Positions 20,244-34,265 of a stretch of DNA of 64,000 bases are shown here, piece after piece; positions within the stretch are counted from its first letter, which is position 1, and each line of letters opens with the position of its first letter. The position numbers and the translations under genes were made by a program. The stretch comes from Acidobacteriota bacterium (GTDB lineage Bacteria > Acidobacteriota > Terriglobia > Acidiferrales > UBA7541): the NCBI GenBank assembly GCA_003225295.1, contig QHYZ01000056.1, positions 62,001 through 126,000 on the forward strand. Direction: 5' to 3'. The notes beneath the pieces were generated by a model. The model did not search any database, was not told the origin of the DNA, and was given only the letters and a program-made list of their open reading frames with translations.

Positions 20244-23200
20244 CTACGGCTCCCACTCCTCTTGGCCGCCCCGCCCGCCGCGTGGCTGCGGCGGCGCCGG
20301 GACGATGTGGGGAATGCCCGCGTCATTCATCTTCTTATTCAGCGCGGGCAGTTCCTCCTCGGCGATTTTCTTGGCCTGCGCCAAAGCATCGTTGACCAGC
20401 GGCGTCAGCTCTGCCAGCTTTTCCTTCTGCTGTCCGTCGGGGGCGGCCACAAATCCGTCCAGGTCATCCAGCAGGTTCTGCACTTGATTCGGCAGCGGGT
20501 CGGGCTTCCATTCAAACGGCGGCCCCGCATTTCCCAAGCCTTCGCGTTCACGAATAAACTTTCCCGCCACCGCGTCTACTCTCTTCTGCAGTTCGTCGGC
20601 GGCTTTGACGATATCGTCAGGGATCTTGGTCGTGTTGGGTTTTCCCGCATCCTTCTTCCACTGCTCGCGCGCGGTCTTCAGCGCTGTCTGTATGCCTTCC
20701 ATTGTTTTCCGGTCCTTGTCCGTCGTCTTGGCCATGGGGTAAAGCTGGTCAATCATTTCGCGCCGAGCGGAGCGGTCCGCCGCGGAGATCACCACGCGCG
20801 TATCCTCTTCGACCAGGACTTTCTCGGAGGCTTCCCGGTCTCCGGCCTTGATCTTGATGGTGTATTCCCCCGGCTCGACGAGCGGCCCGCGTGGCCCCAA
20901 TCCATATCCCGCCGCGATCGCTTCCAGCTGTTCGGGTGTGGGATCCGCCGGCGGCGCCGAGCGCAAATCCCAGTTGGTGCGGTTGACGCCCGCCGCGCCC
21001 GGCCCGTCCAACTCCCGCAGCACTTTCCCGTCTTTGTCAAGCACGGTGATTTTTACTTGGCCTTCCTTCTTTTCCTTTGCGTCGCCCTTGGCCTCCGGCT
21101 TGGGCTTCTCGTCGGCCGCGTCTTTCTTGTCTTTTTCCTCTTTGTCGTTCTTGGGCGTCTCCGGTGGCACGGCTTCTTTCAGGTAGTAGCTCAAGATCAC
21201 CCCGTACGGCGGATTCTTCGCCGTGAACATTTTCTGGCCTGCACTCCAGCGGCGGTTGCGCAGGTGCCAGGTCGTCGCCGCCCGCGGCGCAAAGAATGTC
21301 AGGGGTGATCCCGCCACGCTCGCATCCATCTTCTCCATGGGCGTCAGATCGTCAAGCACCCAGATCGATCGCCCGTGCGTCGCCAGCACCAGGTCGTTTT
21401 CGCGCGACTGGATTTCGATGTCGTCCACCGGTACCGTCGGGAGATTGTTTTTCAGGGCCGCCCAGTTTCCTCCGCGATCCCACGATACCCAGAGCCCGAA
21501 CTCCGTCCCCGCAAACAAGAGGTTCATGTTCCGCGGATGCTCACGCACTACGTGCACGCTCCCGGCGGAATCGGGAATGCCGTTGCGGATGGCTTTCCAG
21601 TTTTCGCCATAGTCGCTGGTCGCAAAAATATAGACGCTGTTATCGTCGCCGCGATGCCCGTCGAAGGCCAGCAGCGCCGCGCCTTCACCGGTTTTCGAGG
21701 CCACCACGCGGCTCACGTAAGTTCCTTGGCCCACTCCCGGCACCTTGGACGCCACGTTCTTCCAGGTCTTCCCGCCGTCGCGCGTCACCTGCACGTTGCC
21801 GTCATCGGTCCCCACCCACAACACGTTGGGAGTCAGCGGCGATTCGCTGAGCGTGGTGATGGTCGGATATTCCTGCACGCCGTCGTGCCGCGACAAGGTG
21901 TTCTTGTCCGGAGTTTTCCCAAAAATTGGTAACTTATTGCGGTCCACTCCCGTGGTCATGTCCCCGCCAAGCCGGGTCCAGGTATCTCCGCGATTCGTTG
22001 ACTTGAACAGATAATTTCCGCCGTAGTACACCGTGGTGTGCTCGTGAGCGGAAACGGCCACCGGCGAATTCCACTGAAACCGGTAGTGCGGCTCTCCTGC
22101 TTTCGCCTCCGGGCGGATCGACCGTTGCTGCCCGGTGCGTAAGTCGCGGCGATCGATGTACCCATCCTGTGACTCGGTGTAAACGATCCAGGGCTCCAGA
22201 TTATCAATTGCCGCGTAGAAACCGTCGCCGCCGTGAATCACCTGCCAGTCATCATTCACGATCCCGTCGCGCGTCAGCGTTTGGCTTGGCCCGCACCAAC
22301 TGCCGTTGTCCTGCAAGCCGCCGCAGATGTGGTACGGCTTTTCGTTGTCGAGCGCTATTTCGTAGAACTGCCCGATCGCGATGGTGTTGACGAAGTCCCA
22401 GGTCTTCCCGGCGTCATAGCTCCAGTGAATCCCGCCATCCGACCCGGTGAGCATGTGGTTCGAATCCGCCGGATCGATCCACATGGCGTGATAGTCGCCA
22501 TGAATTCCTTTCACGCGCTGCGTCGAAAACGTCTTTCCGCCATCCTGGGAATAGAACATCGGTGCACCGAGTTCCCAGATCCGGAGATCATTATTGGGAT
22601 CAATGCGAATCTGGCTGTAGTAGGAAGGGCGCGGATTGGTATCGCCCATCTTCTTCCAGGTCTCGCCTTTGTCCTCGCTGCGATAAGTCCCGCCCTTGTC
22701 GTGCTGCACGATGGCGTAAACAATGGCGGGGTCCTTGCGGTAGACGTCCAGCCCGATGCGCCCGGTTGCTCCGCCGTTCTCATACGGCAGGCCTTTGGTC
22801 AGTTTTTTCCAGGTTGCGCCGCCGTCGGTTGTCTTATAGATGGCACTGTCCGGTCCGCCGCCATTGAATCCGAAGGGGGTCCGCCGCCGCTCATACGCCG
22901 CGGCATACAGCGTGTCCGGACTCTCCGGGTCCATGGCGATGTCGCTCACCCCGGTGTCATCGTTGATCTTCAGCACTTGCGACCAGGTCTTCCCGCCGTC
23001 CGCCGTCTTATACACGCCACGGTCCGGATTCGGTCCCCACAGATGTCCTAGCGCCGCCACGTACACCATATCCGGATTCTTCGGATGGATCACGATTCGC
23101 CCGATGTGGCGCGTGGCTTCGAGCCCCATTCTCTTCCAGGTCTTCCCGCTGTCGAGCGACTTGTACGCTCCATCGCCCCAGGAGGAACTTTGCCGGTTGT

Positions 23201-23561
23201 TCGGCTCGCCCGTTCCGACCCACACGACCGAGGGATCCGACGGCGCAATCGCGATGTCGCCAATCGTTGATACGCTCTCTTTATCGAATATCGGCTCCCA
23301 CGTCGTGCCGTTGTTGGTGGTTTTCCACACACCCCCCGAAGCCGTGCCTACATATACGATGTTTGGATTGCTCTCCACCACTGCGAAATCGTCGATGCGT
23401 CCGCCCATGGTCGCGGGGCCGATCTCCCGGAATTCAAGATTCTTGAATTTATCGGTGGGATTTGGCTGGTCGCCGGGCGCCGCCAGCGCGCTCATGGACA
23501 ACGTGCCAAAAATCGCCCCACCAGCCAGAATCGTCCGCAGAGCATTCCCGGTATGCTTCAT
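20244..23561 (-). CDS. Exported sortilin-like (VPS10/BNR Asp-box) beta-propeller protein
   Basis: 1105 residues. Signal peptide with AGGAIFGTLSMSALAAPG. At least ten Asp-box repeats of the form S/T-x-D-x-G-x-T-W are readable (SLDSGKTWKRM, TADGGKTWSQV, TTDGGATWKKL, SEDKGETWKKM, SYDAGKTWDFV, STNRGDTWTRL, TRDGGKTWKNV, SWDRGGNWAAL), forming one or two large propellers to about residue 720. A Lys/Glu/Asp-rich linker follows near 780-820, then an FlgD-like segment (KVLRELDGPGAAGVNRTNWDL) and a helical tail ending in a glycine/proline-rich stretch. Start 23561 chosen for a GAGG 9 nt upstream. Function unknown; in the family, binding or glycosidase-like roles are only assumed. Confidence 0.85.
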   Translation of the reverse strand: MKHTGNALRTILAGGAIFGTLSMSALAAPGDQPNPTDKFKNLEFREIGPATMGGRIDDFAVVESNPNIVYVGTASGGVWKTTNNGTTWEPIFDKESVSTIGDIAIAPSDPSVVWVGTGEPNNRQSSSWGDGAYKSLDSGKTWKRMGLEATRHIGRIVIHPKNPDMVYVAALGHLWGPNPDRGVYKTADGGKTWSQVLKINDDTGVSDIAMDPESPDTLYAAAYERRRTPFGFNGGGPDSAIYKTTDGGATWKKLTKGLPYENGGATGRIGLDVYRKDPAIVYAIVQHDKGGTYRSEDKGETWKKMGDTNPRPSYYSQIRIDPNNDLRIWELGAPMFYSQDGGKTFSTQRVKGIHGDYHAMWIDPADSNHMLTGSDGGIHWSYDAGKTWDFVNTIAIGQFYEIALDNEKPYHICGGLQDNGSWCGPSQTLTRDGIVNDDWQVIHGGDGFYAAIDNLEPWIVYTESQDGYIDRRDLRTGQQRSIRPEAKAGEPHYRFQWNSPVAVSAHEHTTVYYGGNYLFKSTNRGDTWTRLGGDMTTGVDRNKLPIFGKTPDKNTLSRHDGVQEYPTITTLSESPLTPNVLWVGTDDGNVQVTRDGGKTWKNVASKVPGVGQGTYVSRVVASKTGEGAALLAFDGHRGDDNSVYIFATSDYGENWKAIRNGIPDSAGSVHVVREHPRNMNLLFAGTEFGLWVSWDRGGNWAALKNNLPTVPVDDIEIQSRENDLVLATHGRSIWVLDDLTPMEKMDASVAGSPLTFFAPRAATTWHLRNRRWSAGQKMFTAKNPPYGVILSYYLKEAVPPETPKNDKEEKDKKDAADEKPKPEAKGDAKEKKEGQVKITVLDKDGKVLRELDGPGAAGVNRTNWDLRSAPPADPTPEQLEAIAAGYGLGPRGPLVEPGEYTIKIKAGDREASEKVLVEEDTRVVISAADRSARREMIDQLYPMAKTTDKDRKTMEGIQTALKTAREQWKKDAGKPNTTKIPDDIVKAADELQKRVDAVAGKFIREREGLGNAGPPFEWKPDPLPNQVQNLLDDLDGFVAAPDGQQKEKLAELTPLVNDALAQAKKIAEEELPALNKKMNDAGIPHIVPAPPQPRGGRGGQEEWEP

Positions 23562-23795
23562 TTCCATCCCCCTCGGTACAAGGCCCGGCATGATACTCCG
23601 GCTGGGCCGAGTAGCGCATCAAATGTCTTCAGAAGGGCCAACCAACCCGCTCCGAAGAGTGACGCACCGCGCGGCCGCTTCGTTTCACGCCTGCGCCATT
23701 CGGCCGTTCCGTCACCGCGTGCAACTCATGGCCTGTCGTTGCCTTCAAATCCCTACGACCGCATGCTAGGCTATCCCACGATCTTCTTTGACCGC

Positions 23796-26246: not shown

Positions 26247-27659
26247 ATGAACGACACCGACCTGGCCTTCGCATCCATCGAGGAAGTCGGAAAACTCTTC
26301 CGCAAACGCAAACTCTCTCCCGTCGAGCTCACCAAGCTGATGCTCGCCCGCATCGAGCAGCTCAATCCCAAACTGAACGCTTACATCACGGTCACCGCAG
26401 AACTGGCCCTGGAGCAATCCAAGAAGGCCGAATCCGAGCTTTTCGGGCGGCGTGCTCAGAAAGGGCATCGTGATCGCGGCCCGCTCCATGGAATCCCGAT
26501 TTCGCTGAAAGACAACATCTGCACAAAAGACATTCGAACAACTGCGGGTTCAAAAATCCTGAAAGATTTTATCCCCCCGTGCGACGCTCAAATCGTGGCC
26601 AGGCTGAGAGAAGCCGGCGCGGTGATCCTGGGAAAGACCAACTTGCACGAGTTCGCTTACGGTGTGACCTCTAGCAATCCGCACTACGGGGCGGTCCGCA
26701 ATCCCTGGGATCCCCGGCGCATTCCCGGTGGCTCGAGCGGAGGTTCTGCTGCCGCCGTTGCCGCCGGCCTCGGTTACGGCAGCATGGGAACGGACACCGG
26801 CGGCTCTATCCGCATTCCCGCATCCCTCTCGGGCGTCACCGGTCTGAAGCCCAGCTGGGGCCGCATCTCATGTGCAGGCATCATTCCACTTTCTCCCGCC
26901 CTCGATTGCGCGGGCCCACTGGCTCGAACCGTCGGTGACGTGGCCACTCTCGCCGGAGTTCTATACTCGCGCGTGGGCCGCCAACCAAATCTTCTAAGTT
27001 CTGCGGCTCGGCGGTCTGGCAAGTTTCGCCTGGGAATTCCACGTCAATTGTTCTTCGATGCTCTTTCACCGGAAGTCCGGAAAGCCTTTGACACCGCTTT
27101 ACGCCGCGTGGCTATGGCCGCGAAAGACATTTCTATCCCCCTGCTCGATGAAACCGAAGACGCCGGGAATCATATCGCCTGGGCGGAAGCGGCCCTTTAC
27201 CACCAGCAACAGGGATATTTTCCGGCCCGGGCTGCGGAGTACGGCGACGACGTGGGTTCAAGACTGGAGATGGGCTCGAAGGTGCCAGCGGTTGACTACC
27301 TGCGGGCGCTGGAGATTCAGAGACAATTCTTCGAGCAACTGCACTGGGCGCTCGCGGAGGCGGATGTGGATGCCATGGTCTTTCCCTCCACCGCCATTGA
27401 GGCGCCGCTCTTGAATCAGGAAACGATCCGCATCGGGACGCACGAGTATGCGACTCGCGCTTTGCTGCTGCGGAACAACCGTCCGGCAAATCTGGCCGGT
27501 GTGCCTGCTGTTTCCGTTCCTTGTGGCTTTACCGGTTCGGGATTGCCGATCGGTTTCGAGCTCATGGCCGGTGTCGCGAGCGAGCCCGTGCTGCTGCGCA
27601 TCGCCAATATCTTCGAGCGCTCCCGCTCCGAGAACCTCCGTCCTCCGTTAGCTGTTTAA
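26247..27659 (+). CDS. Amidase-signature hydrolase (GatA-like)
   Basis: 470 residues. The amidase-signature catalytic triad is complete with family spacing: Lys88 (GIPISLKDNI), cis-Ser163 in GGSSGGSAAA and nucleophile Ser187 in GTDTGGSIRIP. It resembles GatA of the Asp/Glu-tRNA amidotransferase, but gatB and gatC are not adjacent, so a stand-alone amidase is at least as likely. Starts 66 bp after lptD at ATG 26247. Its last 98 bp overlap the 3' end of the convergent PAP2 gene. Confidence 0.85.
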   Translation: MNDTDLAFASIEEVGKLFRKRKLSPVELTKLMLARIEQLNPKLNAYITVTAELALEQSKKAESELFGRRAQKGHRDRGPLHGIPISLKDNICTKDIRTTAGSKILKDFIPPCDAQIVARLREAGAVILGKTNLHEFAYGVTSSNPHYGAVRNPWDPRRIPGGSSGGSAAAVAAGLGYGSMGTDTGGSIRIPASLSGVTGLKPSWGRISCAGIIPLSPALDCAGPLARTVGDVATLAGVLYSRVGRQPNLLSSAARRSGKFRLGIPRQLFFDALSPEVRKAFDTALRRVAMAAKDISIPLLDETEDAGNHIAWAEAALYHQQQGYFPARAAEYGDDVGSRLEMGSKVPAVDYLRALEIQRQFFEQLHWALAEADVDAMVFPSTAIEAPLLNQETIRIGTHEYATRALLLRNNRPANLAGVPAVSVPCGFTGSGLPIGFELMAGVASEPVLLRIANIFERSRSENLRPPLAV

Positions 27660-28806
27660 TGGGCGGGTACCCGCCACGGCCGTCAAGAGAACCGACCCCT
27701 GGCCTCGTGCTTATCCCCTGTTCAGGCTTGCATTTGCGGGCGTACTTGGCGCCAGACGTTTTATCTGCTTCCGTCGCCAGGGAGCCTTCGGTGGTCATTA
27801 CCCAACCACCGATCACATACCCCAGCGTCCCGGTGGCCATTCCGGCGAACACATCCACCACGTAGTGGTACCGTCCCCACACTGTCGAAACACACATGCA
27901 GGCGACCAGCGGCAACATTACCCAAAACAGCCACCGCCGGTGACGCCATGCTCCCCACAACGCCGCGACCGACCCGGCTACGTGCTCGGAAGGAAAGGCC
28001 GCCCCGCGCACGCGACCGAAATGTTCAATGAAATTGATGGTTGCCGTGATGGGCCCGCCCTCTAACGGGCCGCGCCACGCTCCCGCCATCGAAAACCATG
28101 GACTTTCGATGGGAAAGAGAATCGCAATCACATACCCGACGGCGTACCCCGTGGCCGAATACGTCATCACCGACCAGTACTCGCGCCAATCGCGCCGGTA
28201 ATACAAGACGCCGCCCAACACCAACAGATATCCGAAATAAGTAAGATAGGCGAATTGCATGAAATCGTTCCGCGCCGGCGTTGCAAACTGTTCCAGCCAC
28301 ACCGCCGGATCCACGCCCGTCAGCCAGTGATCGGCGGCCATCAGCTTGGCGTCCTGCCAGCCGGGCGTCACGAGATGCACGAATTTTCCCAGCTCCTCAA
28401 AACAGAATAGAAAAAACAGATGCGGATACCAGTGCCGCCAGAAGCGCCAGAACTTTGCTGAAAACGTCTCGCTTGGCCCCCTGGCGCGCTCCCGAACCCA
28501 GGCTTCGACAAGGCACAAGGCCAGAATCATGGTCGCAACCAATGCTTGCACGCTGACCAGCTTCACTGGATGCGCAAGGTTTTCCGCAAACACGGCGATC
28601 AGCGCACTCGATGCCGCCAAATACCCGAGCGCCACCCACTCGAATGCTCCGCACGCCGCCCACGCTGCCGCCAACTGCCGGGTAATCCATGGCGCGATTC
28701 TTTGCCCCCCTGCTTCGAAGTCGGCGGTGCGCGCGCCGCCTCCGGCAGCACCCCTCGCGATCGCGTCTTCGTGCCCTCCATGATTCTGTCTTTCCGCGCT
28801 ATTCAT
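27562..28806 (-). CDS. Aur1/Ipt1-like PAP2-family membrane enzyme
   Basis: 414 residues with about six membrane helices between residues 55 and 335. PAP2 motifs: AAFPSEHVAGS with His275, and STVWGRYHYVVDVFAG with Arg312, His314 and Asp318, the arrangement seen in inositol-phosphoryl-ceramide synthases and related lipid phosphotransferases; the first motif (K-x6-RP) is not obvious, as in that subgroup. The last 70 or so residues are hydrophilic and overlap the end of the amidase gene on the other strand. It follows the CDP-alcohol phosphotransferase-HAD fusion by 63 bp in the same direction, so a joint role in phospholipid or sphingolipid head-group chemistry is inferred. Confidence 0.82.
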   Translation of the reverse strand: MNSAERQNHGGHEDAIARGAAGGGARTADFEAGGQRIAPWITRQLAAAWAACGAFEWVALGYLAASSALIAVFAENLAHPVKLVSVQALVATMILALCLVEAWVRERARGPSETFSAKFWRFWRHWYPHLFFLFCFEELGKFVHLVTPGWQDAKLMAADHWLTGVDPAVWLEQFATPARNDFMQFAYLTYFGYLLVLGGVLYYRRDWREYWSVMTYSATGYAVGYVIAILFPIESPWFSMAGAWRGPLEGGPITATINFIEHFGRVRGAAFPSEHVAGSVAALWGAWRHRRWLFWVMLPLVACMCVSTVWGRYHYVVDVFAGMATGTLGYVIGGWVMTTEGSLATEADKTSGAKYARKCKPEQGISTRPGVGSLDGRGGYPPIKQLTEDGGSRSGSARRYWRCAAARARSRHRP

Positions 28807-28869
28807 CGCCGGCCCATCGAAGGTGGATTCACGGCTGGTTCTTTCAGTTCGCCAGGGCTCACTTGTTTT

Positions 28870-30393
28870 TCAGCTTCGCCTTTCACACCACCCGGCAATC
28901 TGTCTGTTCTTCTTCCGGAACTTGGAGCGCTCCGGTGTTAAAGCTTTCCACGCGATCGTCGGCCACCCCAGCTTCTTGGCCATCTGTCCAAGACCTTTCG
29001 ATGGATTCACCGCAGTGGGCCGGCCTACCGCTGCCAGCAACCATCGATCATTCAGGCTGTCGCCATACGCGTAGCATCGCCGTAGGTCGAGTCGCTCCTC
29101 CTCCGCCCGTCGCTTCGCTGCGCGCGCCTTGGCTTCCCCAAACATCGCCGGGCCCAAAATCCGTCCCGTCCACCGGCCGTCCAGTTCTTCCAGCCGCGTT
29201 GCCAACACGCGAATCGTCACCGTGATGCCACGCGCGGCAAGTTCGGCTTCCATGGCGCTCGCGGCTCTCCGCGCTAACGGCAGAAGCGTCCCGCTCACCA
29301 GCACAATGTGGTGCCCTTCGTTCGCGTGCCACGCCACTTTCTCTATCGCTTGCGCAAGAAAGGTGGGAACAGGCAGTGGTGGATTGCGCCGCAAAGGAGC
29401 GCGCGGCCGGCCTTCGGCGGGGTGGCCGTCCGTGTCTCCCTGGCCATGCTCGTCAAGAATCTCGACGCCGCGCAGATACACCTTGTTGGCCTCGAAAATC
29501 GCGCCGATCCCGCGCGGCATCAGCCGCATCGCTTCCCTCAACCACAGAAAGTAATTTCTTGCCGGGATCGCTCTTCGGTTTCTCAACATGCGGAAGAATC
29601 TTTTTTCTAGCGAAGGCCGCGCCACCAGCGTTCCATCCAAATCAAAAAACGCCGCAACTCCTCCGCCCTTCTCCCTGGTCTCCTTTACCAGCGGCTCCTG
29701 GGGCACGGTCTTTCCTCCGCCGAGCTGCCCCGCGTTTCCCGCAATGTATTTCCACCCTTCCACCAGCACCGGCACTCCTCGCAGCAAACAAAACGCGGCG
29801 GTCATCCAGGTCAACACATGCGCCCCCAGGCGAATCATGGCCTGGACATCGGCAGCCAGTTCACCCACCAGCGCCAGCGGCCCGCGTGTCAGCGCCAATT
29901 CCAATCCCAAATAGCAGAAGCACAAGCATTTCATCGCCGCATACAACCCTCGGCTCCAGCGTGACGCCACCAGCGCCTGCCCCCACCACGTCTCGAGCAT
30001 GGCATTCGCGCCCCAGCCGGAATGGCCCGCCTTCATGGCCAGCCCGCGCAAGAAATCCGTTGCCGCTCCGCGCGCAAAAAATAAAACCGGCAGCCACAGC
30101 GATACCATCCCCACCACCGCGAAATAGGTGAAGTACACGTTCTCAATCATGCGGTCGCCTAGGATGTCCAGTTGGGCGCCCACCGGCGTGGCCATTTGTT
30201 TCTTGCGCGCGAGATGCCCATCCAAAGCATCCAGCGCGATGGCCGCCACGGTCAGCCCTACTGCCGTGAGGTTGGCCCACGGCCCACGCCCGAACAGACA
30301 CACTGCCAGGAACCCCACCACGACCCGCAGCAACGTCACTTTGTTGGCCGTCCATCCGCTACTCACCTGCCGCATGCCTCCCTGAACGCTCAC
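28870..30393 (-). CDS. CDP-alcohol phosphotransferase fused to a HAD-IB phosphatase
   Basis: 507 residues. The N-terminal membrane half (to about 215) has the complete CDP-alcohol phosphotransferase motif: Asp55, Asp58, Gly59, Ala62, Arg63, Gly72, Asp76, Asp80. The C-terminal half is a HAD phosphatase: nucleophile Asp251 and Asp253 in FFDLDGTLV, motif II VSGT, and metal-binding YGDSLND. The two halves would catalyse transfer of a phospho-alcohol from CDP-diacylglycerol (or similar) and then remove a phosphate, as in phosphatidylglycerol- or phosphatidylinositol-phosphate pathways. Start uncertain: GTG 30393, ATG 30375 or GTG 30366. The Aur1-like PAP2 gene follows in the same unit. Confidence 0.87.
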   Translation of the reverse strand: MSVQGGMRQVSSGWTANKVTLLRVVVGFLAVCLFGRGPWANLTAVGLTVAAIALDALDGHLARKKQMATPVGAQLDILGDRMIENVYFTYFAVVGMVSLWLPVLFFARGAATDFLRGLAMKAGHSGWGANAMLETWWGQALVASRWSRGLYAAMKCLCFCYLGLELALTRGPLALVGELAADVQAMIRLGAHVLTWMTAAFCLLRGVPVLVEGWKYIAGNAGQLGGGKTVPQEPLVKETREKGGGVAAFFDLDGTLVARPSLEKRFFRMLRNRRAIPARNYFLWLREAMRLMPRGIGAIFEANKVYLRGVEILDEHGQGDTDGHPAEGRPRAPLRRNPPLPVPTFLAQAIEKVAWHANEGHHIVLVSGTLLPLARRAASAMEAELAARGITVTIRVLATRLEELDGRWTGRILGPAMFGEAKARAAKRRAEEERLDLRRCYAYGDSLNDRWLLAAVGRPTAVNPSKGLGQMAKKLGWPTIAWKALTPERSKFRKKNRQIAGWCERRS

Positions 30394-30740: not shown

Positions 30741-32300
30741 ATGAATGATGTTTCACTAGCAGGAGCTTTTCTCGCCGGGCTGGTTTCGTTTCTTTCGCCC
30801 TGTGTTCTGCCGCTCGTTCCCGGCTACATCTCCATGCTCTCCGGCATCGGCATGGAGCAGCTCCGCAAGGGCGAAGTTCCGAGTTCCAGTTTGTTGGGCC
30901 CCTCGCTCTCCTTCATCGCCGGCTTCTCCGTGGTGTTCATCTCTTTTGGAGCATCAGCAAGTGCCGTCGGCGTTTTCCTCAAACAGAACCGCAATATGCT
31001 CACTCCCGTGGCGGGTGCGCTTATCCTTCTTTTCGGTCTCCATCTTCTCGGCCTGCTCATCAAGCTCAGCCCCCGTGTAGGCATCATTCTCGGGGTCATG
31101 CTCATCGCTTTCGGTATCACTTCTTTACTTCGCCATGCCCCTCTCTTCGCCGGATTTGGTGCGCTTCATTTCTTCTCGCTTTCCATCATCGGCTTCTTTG
31201 GTCCCGCCTTGGCCCGCTGGCTCAACCGCGACGTCCACCTGCGCAGTTCTGTCGCGCAGCCCAGCGCGTGGAGCGGCTTCCTCCTGGGCTTCGCGTTTGC
31301 CTTCGGCTGGACCCCCTGCATTGGCCCCATCCTCACGACGGTGCTTACGATCGCGGCCGCAAGCGACAAAATTCAGCGCGGCGTGCTCCTCCTGGCCGTC
31401 TATTCCGCCGGCCTGGGGATCCCGTTTCTTCTAACGGCTCTGGGCATCGGAAAATTCATGACCTTCTACAAGAATTTCAGAAAATATCTTCACGCCGTCG
31501 AACTCTTCAGCGGCGCCCTTTTGCTTTTCGTTGGCGCTCTGGTTTTCGTCAACAAGCTGACCTGGCTCACGGCCAAGCTGAGTTTCTTGAATGTCCTTGT
31601 TTTGTGGCTCGAACGCGTCCTCACTAGCGGAAGGGGGGGTACGACGTTCTGGCTGCTAGCCGGTGTGGCTGGTCTGGCAGTCGTGGTATTCGCGGTCATA
31701 AAGCGTTGGGAGAAAATTACTGCTATGCAAGGCAACAAAACTTTCTTGGCCATAGCTACCGTCATCGCGCTCATCATCGGCACCTACTACGCCGATAAGG
31801 CCACGCGCGTCAAAGTCACCGACCCGGTGAAGAGCACCGAGCAGGTCAGCGTCAAGTCCGCCGGACAGCCCGCTCCTGACGTCACCTTCAAAGATCTGCA
31901 GGCCAAAGACGCCACGCTTGGTCAGTACAAAGGCAAAGTCGTGCTGGTCAATTTCTGGGCCACCTGGTGCGATCCCTGCTATATCGAAATTCCCTGGCTC
32001 ATTGAGATGCAGCAGAAGTACGAAGCAAAAGGCTTTACCGTTCTGGGCATCTCCATGGACGAAGAAGGCCAGTCCGCCGTCGCTCCCTTCCTCGCCAAGG
32101 AGCGCTTCAACGTCAACGGCCAGAAACTTCCCATGAACTATCCCATCGTCATCGGCAACGACGAAGTCGCCGACAAGTTCGGCGGCCTCCTCGGCTACCC
32201 CACCAGTTTCCTCATCTCTCGCGACGGCAAAATCGTAAAAAAAGTTCAGGGTCTGATTAGCTACGAGGAACTTACCAAAGCCATCGAATCTCAGTTGTAG
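30741..32300 (+). CDS. CcdA-type transmembrane thiol reductase fused to a TlpA/ResA-like thioredoxin
   Basis: 519 residues. Residues about 1-240 form the CcdA/DsbD membrane domain with its two reactive cysteines, Cys21 (FLSPCVLPLVPGY) and Cys193 (GWTPCIGPIL). One more membrane helix (TFLAIATVIALIIGTYY) leads to a periplasmic thioredoxin-like domain with the active site Cys410-x-x-Cys413 in NFWATWCDPCYIEIP. The fusion would carry electrons across the membrane to periplasmic partners for cytochrome c or disulphide reduction. The missing DsbD N-terminal domain is encoded separately at 33729-34265. The ATG at 30741 follows GAGGATGAACCAGGG. Confidence 0.9.
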   Translation: MNDVSLAGAFLAGLVSFLSPCVLPLVPGYISMLSGIGMEQLRKGEVPSSSLLGPSLSFIAGFSVVFISFGASASAVGVFLKQNRNMLTPVAGALILLFGLHLLGLLIKLSPRVGIILGVMLIAFGITSLLRHAPLFAGFGALHFFSLSIIGFFGPALARWLNRDVHLRSSVAQPSAWSGFLLGFAFAFGWTPCIGPILTTVLTIAAASDKIQRGVLLLAVYSAGLGIPFLLTALGIGKFMTFYKNFRKYLHAVELFSGALLLFVGALVFVNKLTWLTAKLSFLNVLVLWLERVLTSGRGGTTFWLLAGVAGLAVVVFAVIKRWEKITAMQGNKTFLAIATVIALIIGTYYADKATRVKVTDPVKSTEQVSVKSAGQPAPDVTFKDLQAKDATLGQYKGKVVLVNFWATWCDPCYIEIPWLIEMQQKYEAKGFTVLGISMDEEGQSAVAPFLAKERFNVNGQKLPMNYPIVIGNDEVADKFGGLLGYPTSFLISRDGKIVKKVQGLISYEELTKAIESQL

Positions 32301-33399: not shown

Positions 33400-33732
33400 A
33401 TGCTCGATGAAAAAGACTTTCAGCGAAAAGCCGACGCCGCGTTCGAGGACCTCAGGCGCCGCATGCTCACCGCCGGCGATGAGCACGGTTTCGACGTCGA
33501 AGGCGAATCCGGAAAGCTAGAGGTGCTGTTCGAGGAACCCATGGAGGCCAAATTCGTGATTTCACCCAACACCCCCGTCCGCGAAATCTGGATCTCCGCG
33601 CTTTCCACCAGCTTCAAGCTGGGCTGGAATGAACCACGCCAGGCGTTCGTGCACGAAAAAACGGGTGAAGATCTTCACGCCGTCATGAGCCGCGTCATCT
33701 CCCAGCAACTCGGCACCCAGGTCACTTTATGA
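33400..33732 (+). CDS. cyaY: Frataxin-family protein CyaY
   Basis: 110 residues, the usual bacterial CyaY size. Recognised by the acidic first helix (DEKDFQRKADAAFEDLRRR) and the sheet with LEVLFEE, KFVISPNTPVREIWISA and FKLGWNEPRQAF. It binds iron and modulates Fe-S cluster assembly by IscS/IscU. ATG 33400 is preferred over ATG 33385 by family length; the open frame runs further upstream. Its stop overlaps the next start by four bases (ATGA), coupling it to the DsbD-like N-terminal domain gene. Confidence 0.88.
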   Translation: MLDEKDFQRKADAAFEDLRRRMLTAGDEHGFDVEGESGKLEVLFEEPMEAKFVISPNTPVREIWISALSTSFKLGWNEPRQAFVHEKTGEDLHAVMSRVISQQLGTQVTL

Positions 33733-34265
33733 AAATCAAAGCAGGTATCCTTTCCATCGGCTTGCTGGTTCTGTCGACCGCGCTGCTGCCGCAAGTCCCC
33801 TCCGGCCGCGAGGTCGTCAAACCCGAAACCTACGTCTCGCTCGATCCCGCGGCCCGCGGCAGCGCATTCGAAATCGCCGTGGTCATGAAGATTCGCCCGG
33901 GCTTCCATGTCAATGCCCGCGAAAAATCGGAAGCCTATCTCATCGCCACCGATCTCAAGGCCGAACTTCCCGCCGGTTTCCACGGCGGCGAAGTCTCCTA
34001 TCCCAAGGGCAAGCTCGAGAAATTCACGTTTTCCAAAACACCACTGAACGTCTACCAGGGCACCTTGATTCTTCGCCTGCCTATCACCACGCTTGCCAAT
34101 GCCCCGCTCGGCGAGCAGCACATTCCTCTCAAGCTCCGCTACCAGGCCTGCAGCACCGAACTCTGCCTGCCCCCGGTCACCGTCACTCTCGACGCCACGC
34201 TCAACGTCGTCGCCTCGGCCTCCGCCGTCAGGTCCGTCCACGCGGACATTTTTAGAAAGCAATAG
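33729..34265 (+). CDS. Stand-alone DsbD N-terminal-like periplasmic thiol protein
   Basis: 178 residues. Signal peptide (GILSIGLLVLSTALLPQ) followed by an immunoglobulin-like domain (IRPGFHVNAREKSEAYLIAT, VYQGTLILRLPIT, LKLRYQACSTELCLPP). The cysteine pair Cys141/Cys146 in ACSTELC matches the redox pair of the DsbD alpha domain that passes electrons to DsbC/DsbG/CcmG. It lacks the membrane and thioredoxin domains, which instead are found fused in the gene at 30741. Overlaps cyaY by ATGA. Confidence 0.85.
   Translation: MKIKAGILSIGLLVLSTALLPQVPSGREVVKPETYVSLDPAARGSAFEIAVVMKIRPGFHVNAREKSEAYLIATDLKAELPAGFHGGEVSYPKGKLEKFTFSKTPLNVYQGTLILRLPITTLANAPLGEQHIPLKLRYQACSTELCLPPVTVTLDATLNVVASASAVRSVHADIFRKQ

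Follow-up and report, generated by a model that had tools for sequence, protein, structure and literature searches.

A conserved three-gene operon of Acidobacteriota and its candidate role in lipid head-group synthesis

Genes for a CDP-alcohol phosphotransferase (CDP-AP), a HAD phosphatase and a PAP2-family membrane protein (hereafter, the trio) form a conserved operon in Acidobacteriota, which we interpret, with a probability of about 0.42, as an accessory lipid head-group operon that would use an acceptor other than ceramide and whose first two genes have recently been fused in the lineage studied here. The operon has been analyzed in a 64,000-nt stretch of an acidobacterial contig (the window) and compared with the loci of relatives; those relatives that bear a name are gp2 MAGs of soil Acidobacteria. 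Many soils are dominated by Acidobacteria, a group with unusual membrane lipids for which only a few head-group enzymes are known. If our reading is true, the chemistry of inositol-phosphorylceramide synthases would extend to another lipid backbone, in genomes with no detected sphingolipid synthesis, and the operon would pair a new CDP-AP clade with a phosphatase and a putative transferase of the Aur1 type.

Structure of the locus

Both reading frames of the operon lie on the minus strand of the window. The fused CDP-AP/HAD frame (28870..30393, 507 aa) is followed after a gap of 63 bp by the PAP2_3 frame (27562..28806, 414 aa), an arrangement that had been read from the sequence alone and is confirmed by the coordinates and by the PF14378 match. 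The CDP-AP half occupies positions 29730..30393 (residues ~1–221) and carries the motif D55xxD58G..AR..G72xxxD76xxxD80-R81, and the HAD-IB phosphatase half occupies 28870..29664 (residues ~244–507) and carries D251xD253 and GDSLND; between them is a weakly conserved linker of ~21 residues (29665..29729), modeled with low confidence at residues 226–243. A complete CDP-AP motif and a complete HAD phosphatase in one chain had been claimed by the sequence-only reading, and D55, D58, D76, D80, D251, D253 and GDSLND are all in place. The profile search of each part, also proposed there, yielded the families CDP-OH_P_transf (PF01066, residues 15–123, E 5.3e-14), HAD (PF12710, residues 248–451, E 2.5e-24) and PAP2_3 (PF14378, residues 154–331, E 2.7e-16, 60.4 bits, which passes the cut-off of 27).

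The GTG start of the fused frame at 30393 is uncertain, as relatives start near ATG 30375 or later. At the other end of the operon, the PAP2 frame closes with a stretch of ~50 residues (27562–~27710) that is not conserved among relatives and reaches into the convergent amidase gene, with an overlap of 98 bp; the tail is probably non-functional, and the extension past the conserved end is probably due to the loss of an ancestral stop codon.

Distribution and conservation of the operon

The order CDP-AP, HAD, PAP2 is kept by each of the 28 relatives with a sufficiently long contig, and in most cases the genes overlap by 4 bp (ATGA). Within the genus, CDP-AP and PAP2 are both present in 31 of the 36 members and both absent in the other five; the trio is also carried by the sister genus (G036), and a complete trio in the same order is found in a genome of another acidobacterial class (G292, locus L098). 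The real unit is the conserved operon of three genes, which members of the genus have or lack as a whole. In the phylum survey, a third lineage, comprising five small-genome relatives, has the adjacent CDP-AP–HAD pair without PAP2, and PAP2_3 homologues alone are commoner (67 of 297 genomes).

In these five relatives (loci L124–L128, genomes of 1.8–2.0 Mb), the pair is situated within a conserved gene run, and the neighbors scanned upstream of it at L127 comprise a radical-SAM/SPASM gene plus two ORFs of ~500 and ~315 aa that match nothing in Pfam. Solitary PAP2_3 homologues from other Acidobacteriota families recurrently abut or overlap a gene for an NAD-dependent epimerase (PF01370), such pairs being observed at L100:7706-8722, L101:7869-8915 and L104:4865-5887.

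Fusion of the first two genes

In all 29 relatives examined, the CDP-AP gene lies next to the HAD gene; the two are separate in 28 of them, mostly ATGA-coupled with the stop and start overlapping by 4 bp, and fused only in G015 (locus L025). The junction alignment and codon counts reveal a ~26-nt deletion, common to the window genome and G015 only, that removed the ATGA stop/start, put HAD in frame and produced the linker. Comparison of the two genomes indicates purifying selection on both halves (dN/dS about 0.39 and 0.57) and none on the linker. The fusion is a recent, derived small deletion joining two enzymes that were already made side by side.

That the fused frame could be an assembly or frameshift artefact, as the split genes of 28 of the 29 relatives might suggest, is extremely improbable, because L025 (MNIJ01000123), an independently assembled relative with 90% identity, carries the identical deletion and frame; the sequencing error considered in the sequence-only reading is thus ruled out as the origin of the fusion. 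The weight given there to the fusion as the key feature did not hold, since it is a derived deletion seen in two genomes only and a similar CDP-AP/HAD fusion has been published for Prevotella veroralis (PMC9246714). No fused homologue was found in a search of a plasmid collection.

CDP-alcohol phosphotransferase half

The eight-residue motif DxxDGxxAR...GxxxDxxxD is complete in the window, with its aspartates invariant in 19 aligned members, and R81, R108, R116, R148 and R205 are invariant in relatives. The best NCBIfam model is PgsA (TIGR00560), followed by archaetidylinositol-phosphate synthase and then by phosphatidylinositol-phosphate synthase (PIPS), and none of the curated cut-offs compared is reached: 50–53 bits vs. 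109.1 for TIGR00560, 28 bits vs. 170 for NF045883 (PIPS), and 15–17 bits vs. 350 for the BT_1523 model. A tree built from 46 sequences places the trio CDP-APs in a clade of their own (support 95/98), whose nearest side, PgsA/Cls, is unsupported. Hence, being below both cut-offs and in a separate clade, the enzyme could be placed with neither PgsA nor PIPS, whether by score, by fold or by tree.

With PgsA, the CDP-AP half shares its best profile, the nearest solved fold in modeled comparison (S. aureus PgsA, structures 7drj and 7drk) and the R...LR spacing of TM4. It differs in the sequence following the motif glycine, which is DIxxDRxxE in the trio, DPxxDK in PgsA and DSTxDR in PIPS, and in a conserved TM6 Arg that is absent in PgsA by alignment. 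With prokaryotic PIPS (NF045883; 6h5a), it shares the pair of the catalytic Asp4 and the following Arg: the invariant R81 corresponds to R94 of M. tuberculosis PIPS, and this Arg has been reported as necessary for inositol phosphate (PMC6506517). The invariant R148 and R205 align, in a low-identity alignment, with the acceptor-phosphate arginines R155 and R195 in TM5/TM6 of PIPS (PMC4634129); in contrast to PIPS, the trio enzyme has neither the SYARARAE nor the ERPERL signature. From these residues, it seems a fair conclusion that the acceptor is a phosphorylated compound, and the phosphatase encoded by the following gene would agree with this.

HAD phosphatase half

The HAD half passes the HAD-IB model TIGR01490 (108 vs. 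98.3 bits) and has the DxD, K and GDxxxD motifs, and its nearest folds in the modeled comparison are HAD-IB 3fvv and SerB. In relatives, DxD and the motif-III K are invariant, and the first Asp of motif IV is lost in a few; this half is the fastest evolving part of the trio. To our knowledge, the characterized members of HAD-IB are phosphatases.

PAP2 protein

The PAP2_3 membrane protein carries the Aur1-type motif FPSEH...VSTVWGRYHYVVD, and H275, H314, D318, S307 and T308 are invariant in relatives. The third PAP2 motif reads STMYLTHHYFVD in Aur1 and STVWGRYHYVVD in the window, both with ST, whereas SR is kept at this position by three phosphatases of the PAP2 family that the genome also encodes; the earlier description of the motif as Aur1-like rather than phosphatase-like is thus borne out. 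The only recurrent NCBIfam match is NF052609, the Bacteroides phosphoinositol-dihydroceramide synthase, to which 18 of 20 PAP2 members match weakly (19.4 bits for the window protein, far from passing the cut-off of 480).

Fungal Aur1, the inositol phosphorylceramide synthase (9ivc, 9vj3), has the same PAP2 fold class, FPSxH and ST-x-Y-xxx-HYxxD; the sequence match to it is not significant (E 0.56), and no ceramide pathway was found in the window genome. In structure comparison the first match is a PgpB-type phosphatase (5jki) and the second is Aur1, neither of them significant, and the model (pLDDT 62, low confidence) is too weak for a decision between phosphatase and transferase. The ST motif is common in the solitary PAP2_3 homologues across the phylum. 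Taken from the sequence, the role of a head-group transferase is favored for this protein.

Genome context and the ceramide question

Separate phospholipid genes are dispersed over the genome: PgsA on C82 (TIGR00560, 149 bits vs. the cut-off of 109.1), a cardiolipin-synthase-like enzyme on C160, PssA on C174, PgpA on C331 and a canonical PIPS with the SYARARAE and ERPERL signatures on C75. Orthologues of PgsA are present in 59 of 61 relatives, and those of PIPS, in 56 of 61. As these genes are separate and PgsA and PIPS are widespread, the trio is accessory, and the housekeeping synthesis of phosphatidylglycerol and phosphatidylinositol does not need it. The sequence-only reading had named a PGP phosphatase supplied by another gene, with common phosphatidylglycerol as the lipid, as grounds for giving up its pathway; PgsA and PgpA are indeed encoded elsewhere, which marks the operon as accessory without implying that it makes ordinary phosphatidylglycerol. 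The sixth CDP-AP of the genome (L077:4817-5479) has a degenerate motif, with N for Asp3 and no Asp–Arg pair, and scores as a distant archaetidylinositol-phosphate synthase.

The search for inositol-phosphate synthase and serine palmitoyltransferase genes, suggested together with ceramide as a possible acceptor, succeeded in its first part, with myo-inositol phosphate synthase (MIPS) found on another contig (G000:C63:18324-19544, E 2e-97). Serine palmitoyltransferase was not found in the genome (96% complete) by a search tuned to the superfamily, which did find homologues in Bacteroides and Caulobacter as controls. The one strong gene of the superfamily is Kbl, as it passes the glycine C-acetyltransferase model, is situated beside tdh (threonine dehydrogenase) and scores 232–363 bits against three serine palmitoyltransferase models with cut-offs of 500–670; the same Kbl/tdh pair is seen in G027. 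Serine palmitoyltransferase is therefore likely absent from the genome, and ceramide, disfavored because of this lack, was rejected as the acceptor.

Proposed pathway and its alternatives

In the proposed pathway, the CDP-AP would join a polyol phosphate, be it that of inositol, of glycerol or of a related compound, to CDP-diacylglycerol, as its family and motif suggest; the HAD-IB domain, judged by its family and conserved residues, would take the terminal phosphate off the lipid head group; and the Aur1-like PAP2 protein might move the phospho-polyol head group to a second, non-ceramide lipid, the motif and weak homology pointing to this step less strongly. The enzyme classes and the likely order of reactions put forward earlier are supported. 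Conservation of the catalytic residues in all three families favors the pathway, as do the fixed order and joint occurrence of the genes, the accessory status of the trio, the Aur1-like ST and recurrent NF052609 match of the PAP2 protein, and the D4–R pair at R81, of the kind that PIP synthases use for inositol phosphate. Against it, the CDP-AP has PgsA as both its best score and its best fold, so that glycerol 3-phosphate may be the acceptor; the NF052609 match is weak and the best fold match of PAP2 is of the PgpB type; with ST common in solitary PAP2_3 proteins, the third step could be a general property untied to the first two; and the HAD half evolves fastest, with the motif-IV Asp lost in some relatives, and no inositol or lipid gene was seen adjoining the trio at the locus. 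That an Aur1-like enzyme would move a phospho-polyol to a non-sphingoid acceptor, in organisms lacking sphingolipids and supplied by a dedicated new CDP-AP family of the DIxxDRxxE type with its own HAD phosphatase, and so constitute an undescribed bacterial pathway, is a specific reading that we hold as rather doubtful; candidate acceptors include hopanoids, glycolipids and lipids of the membrane-spanning or ether kind.

Comparably doubtful is the possibility that the CDP-AP and HAD make an accessory phospholipid such as phosphatidylinositol or phosphatidylglycerol, and PAP2 acts as a phosphatase in the recycling or trimming of lipids. The non-significant match to 5jki, the solitary state of PAP2_3 homologues in most of the phylum and the five relatives with the pair and no PAP2 would agree with it, but an invariant Thr, also seen in Aur1, stands in place of the Arg of phosphatase motif 3, in a genome where three PAP2 phosphatases have SR, and the recurrent model match is to a transferase. 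Somewhat less probable still, and unlikely in our estimate, is that the first two genes encode isozymes of PGP synthase and PGP phosphatase and so provide an additional path to phosphatidylglycerol: the pgsA family, the S. aureus fold and the TM4 spacing speak for it, and against it stand a score of half the curated cut-off, the clade separate from PgsA, DxxxD-R in place of DPxxD-K, the TM6 Arg, and the full-score PgsA and PgpA encoded elsewhere in the genome.

Among pathways that run through these three reactions, the best known is that of BT_1522/1523/1525 in B. thetaiotaomicron, shown by knock-outs (PMC9246714). There, the product of a CDP-AP is a phosphorylated inositol lipid, on which a phosphatase and then a head-group transferase act; by its genes, the trio is likened to the inositol-lipid cluster BT_1522–1526 (PMC9246714, PMC8791184). 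The trio PAP2 weakly matches NF052609, the model of BT_1522. The two systems differ in that the trio phosphatase is HAD-IB and the BT one PgpA-like, MIPS and the GtrA protein are outside the trio operon, the CDP-AP is weak to the BT_1523 model and no serine palmitoyltransferase was found here. Identity of the trio with the Bacteroides inositol-phosphorylceramide pathway, with ceramide as the final acceptor, is suggested by the equal reaction types (PMC9246714) and by MIPS and PIPS in the genome, and is nevertheless very unlikely given the lack of serine palmitoyltransferase here and in G027, when control genomes give homologues. A route of the Kennedy type, like the one put forward for B. vulgatus, in which the CDP-AP would use CDP-inositol and diacylglycerol and the HAD protein would be the transferase, appears just as improbable. 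It recalls the putative alternative inositol-lipid cluster of B. vulgatus and P. veroralis, to which the trio is likened by description, with a CDP-AP beside a HAD hydrolase or, in P. veroralis, fused to it (PMC9246714). That cluster, of putative function, is near MIPS and has an NTP transferase, whereas the trio pair is accompanied by PAP2, already a transferase candidate, and no nucleotidyltransferase gene was identified beside it. As far as we know, moreover, characterized HAD-IB proteins act as phosphatases.

Neighboring genes

The DsbD-like, amidase, LptD and VPS10-like neighbors of the trio gave no functional clue. The DsbD parts are split across the locus: two DsbD-type genes, one encoding a DsbD transmembrane domain fused to a redoxin/thioredoxin (30741-32300) and the other, a separate DsbD N-terminal domain protein (33729-34265), flank a carbonic anhydrase gene. 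A VPS10/sortilin-like BNR-repeat protein of 1115 aa, encoded at 20244-23591 of the window, is strongly conserved near the operon in relatives.
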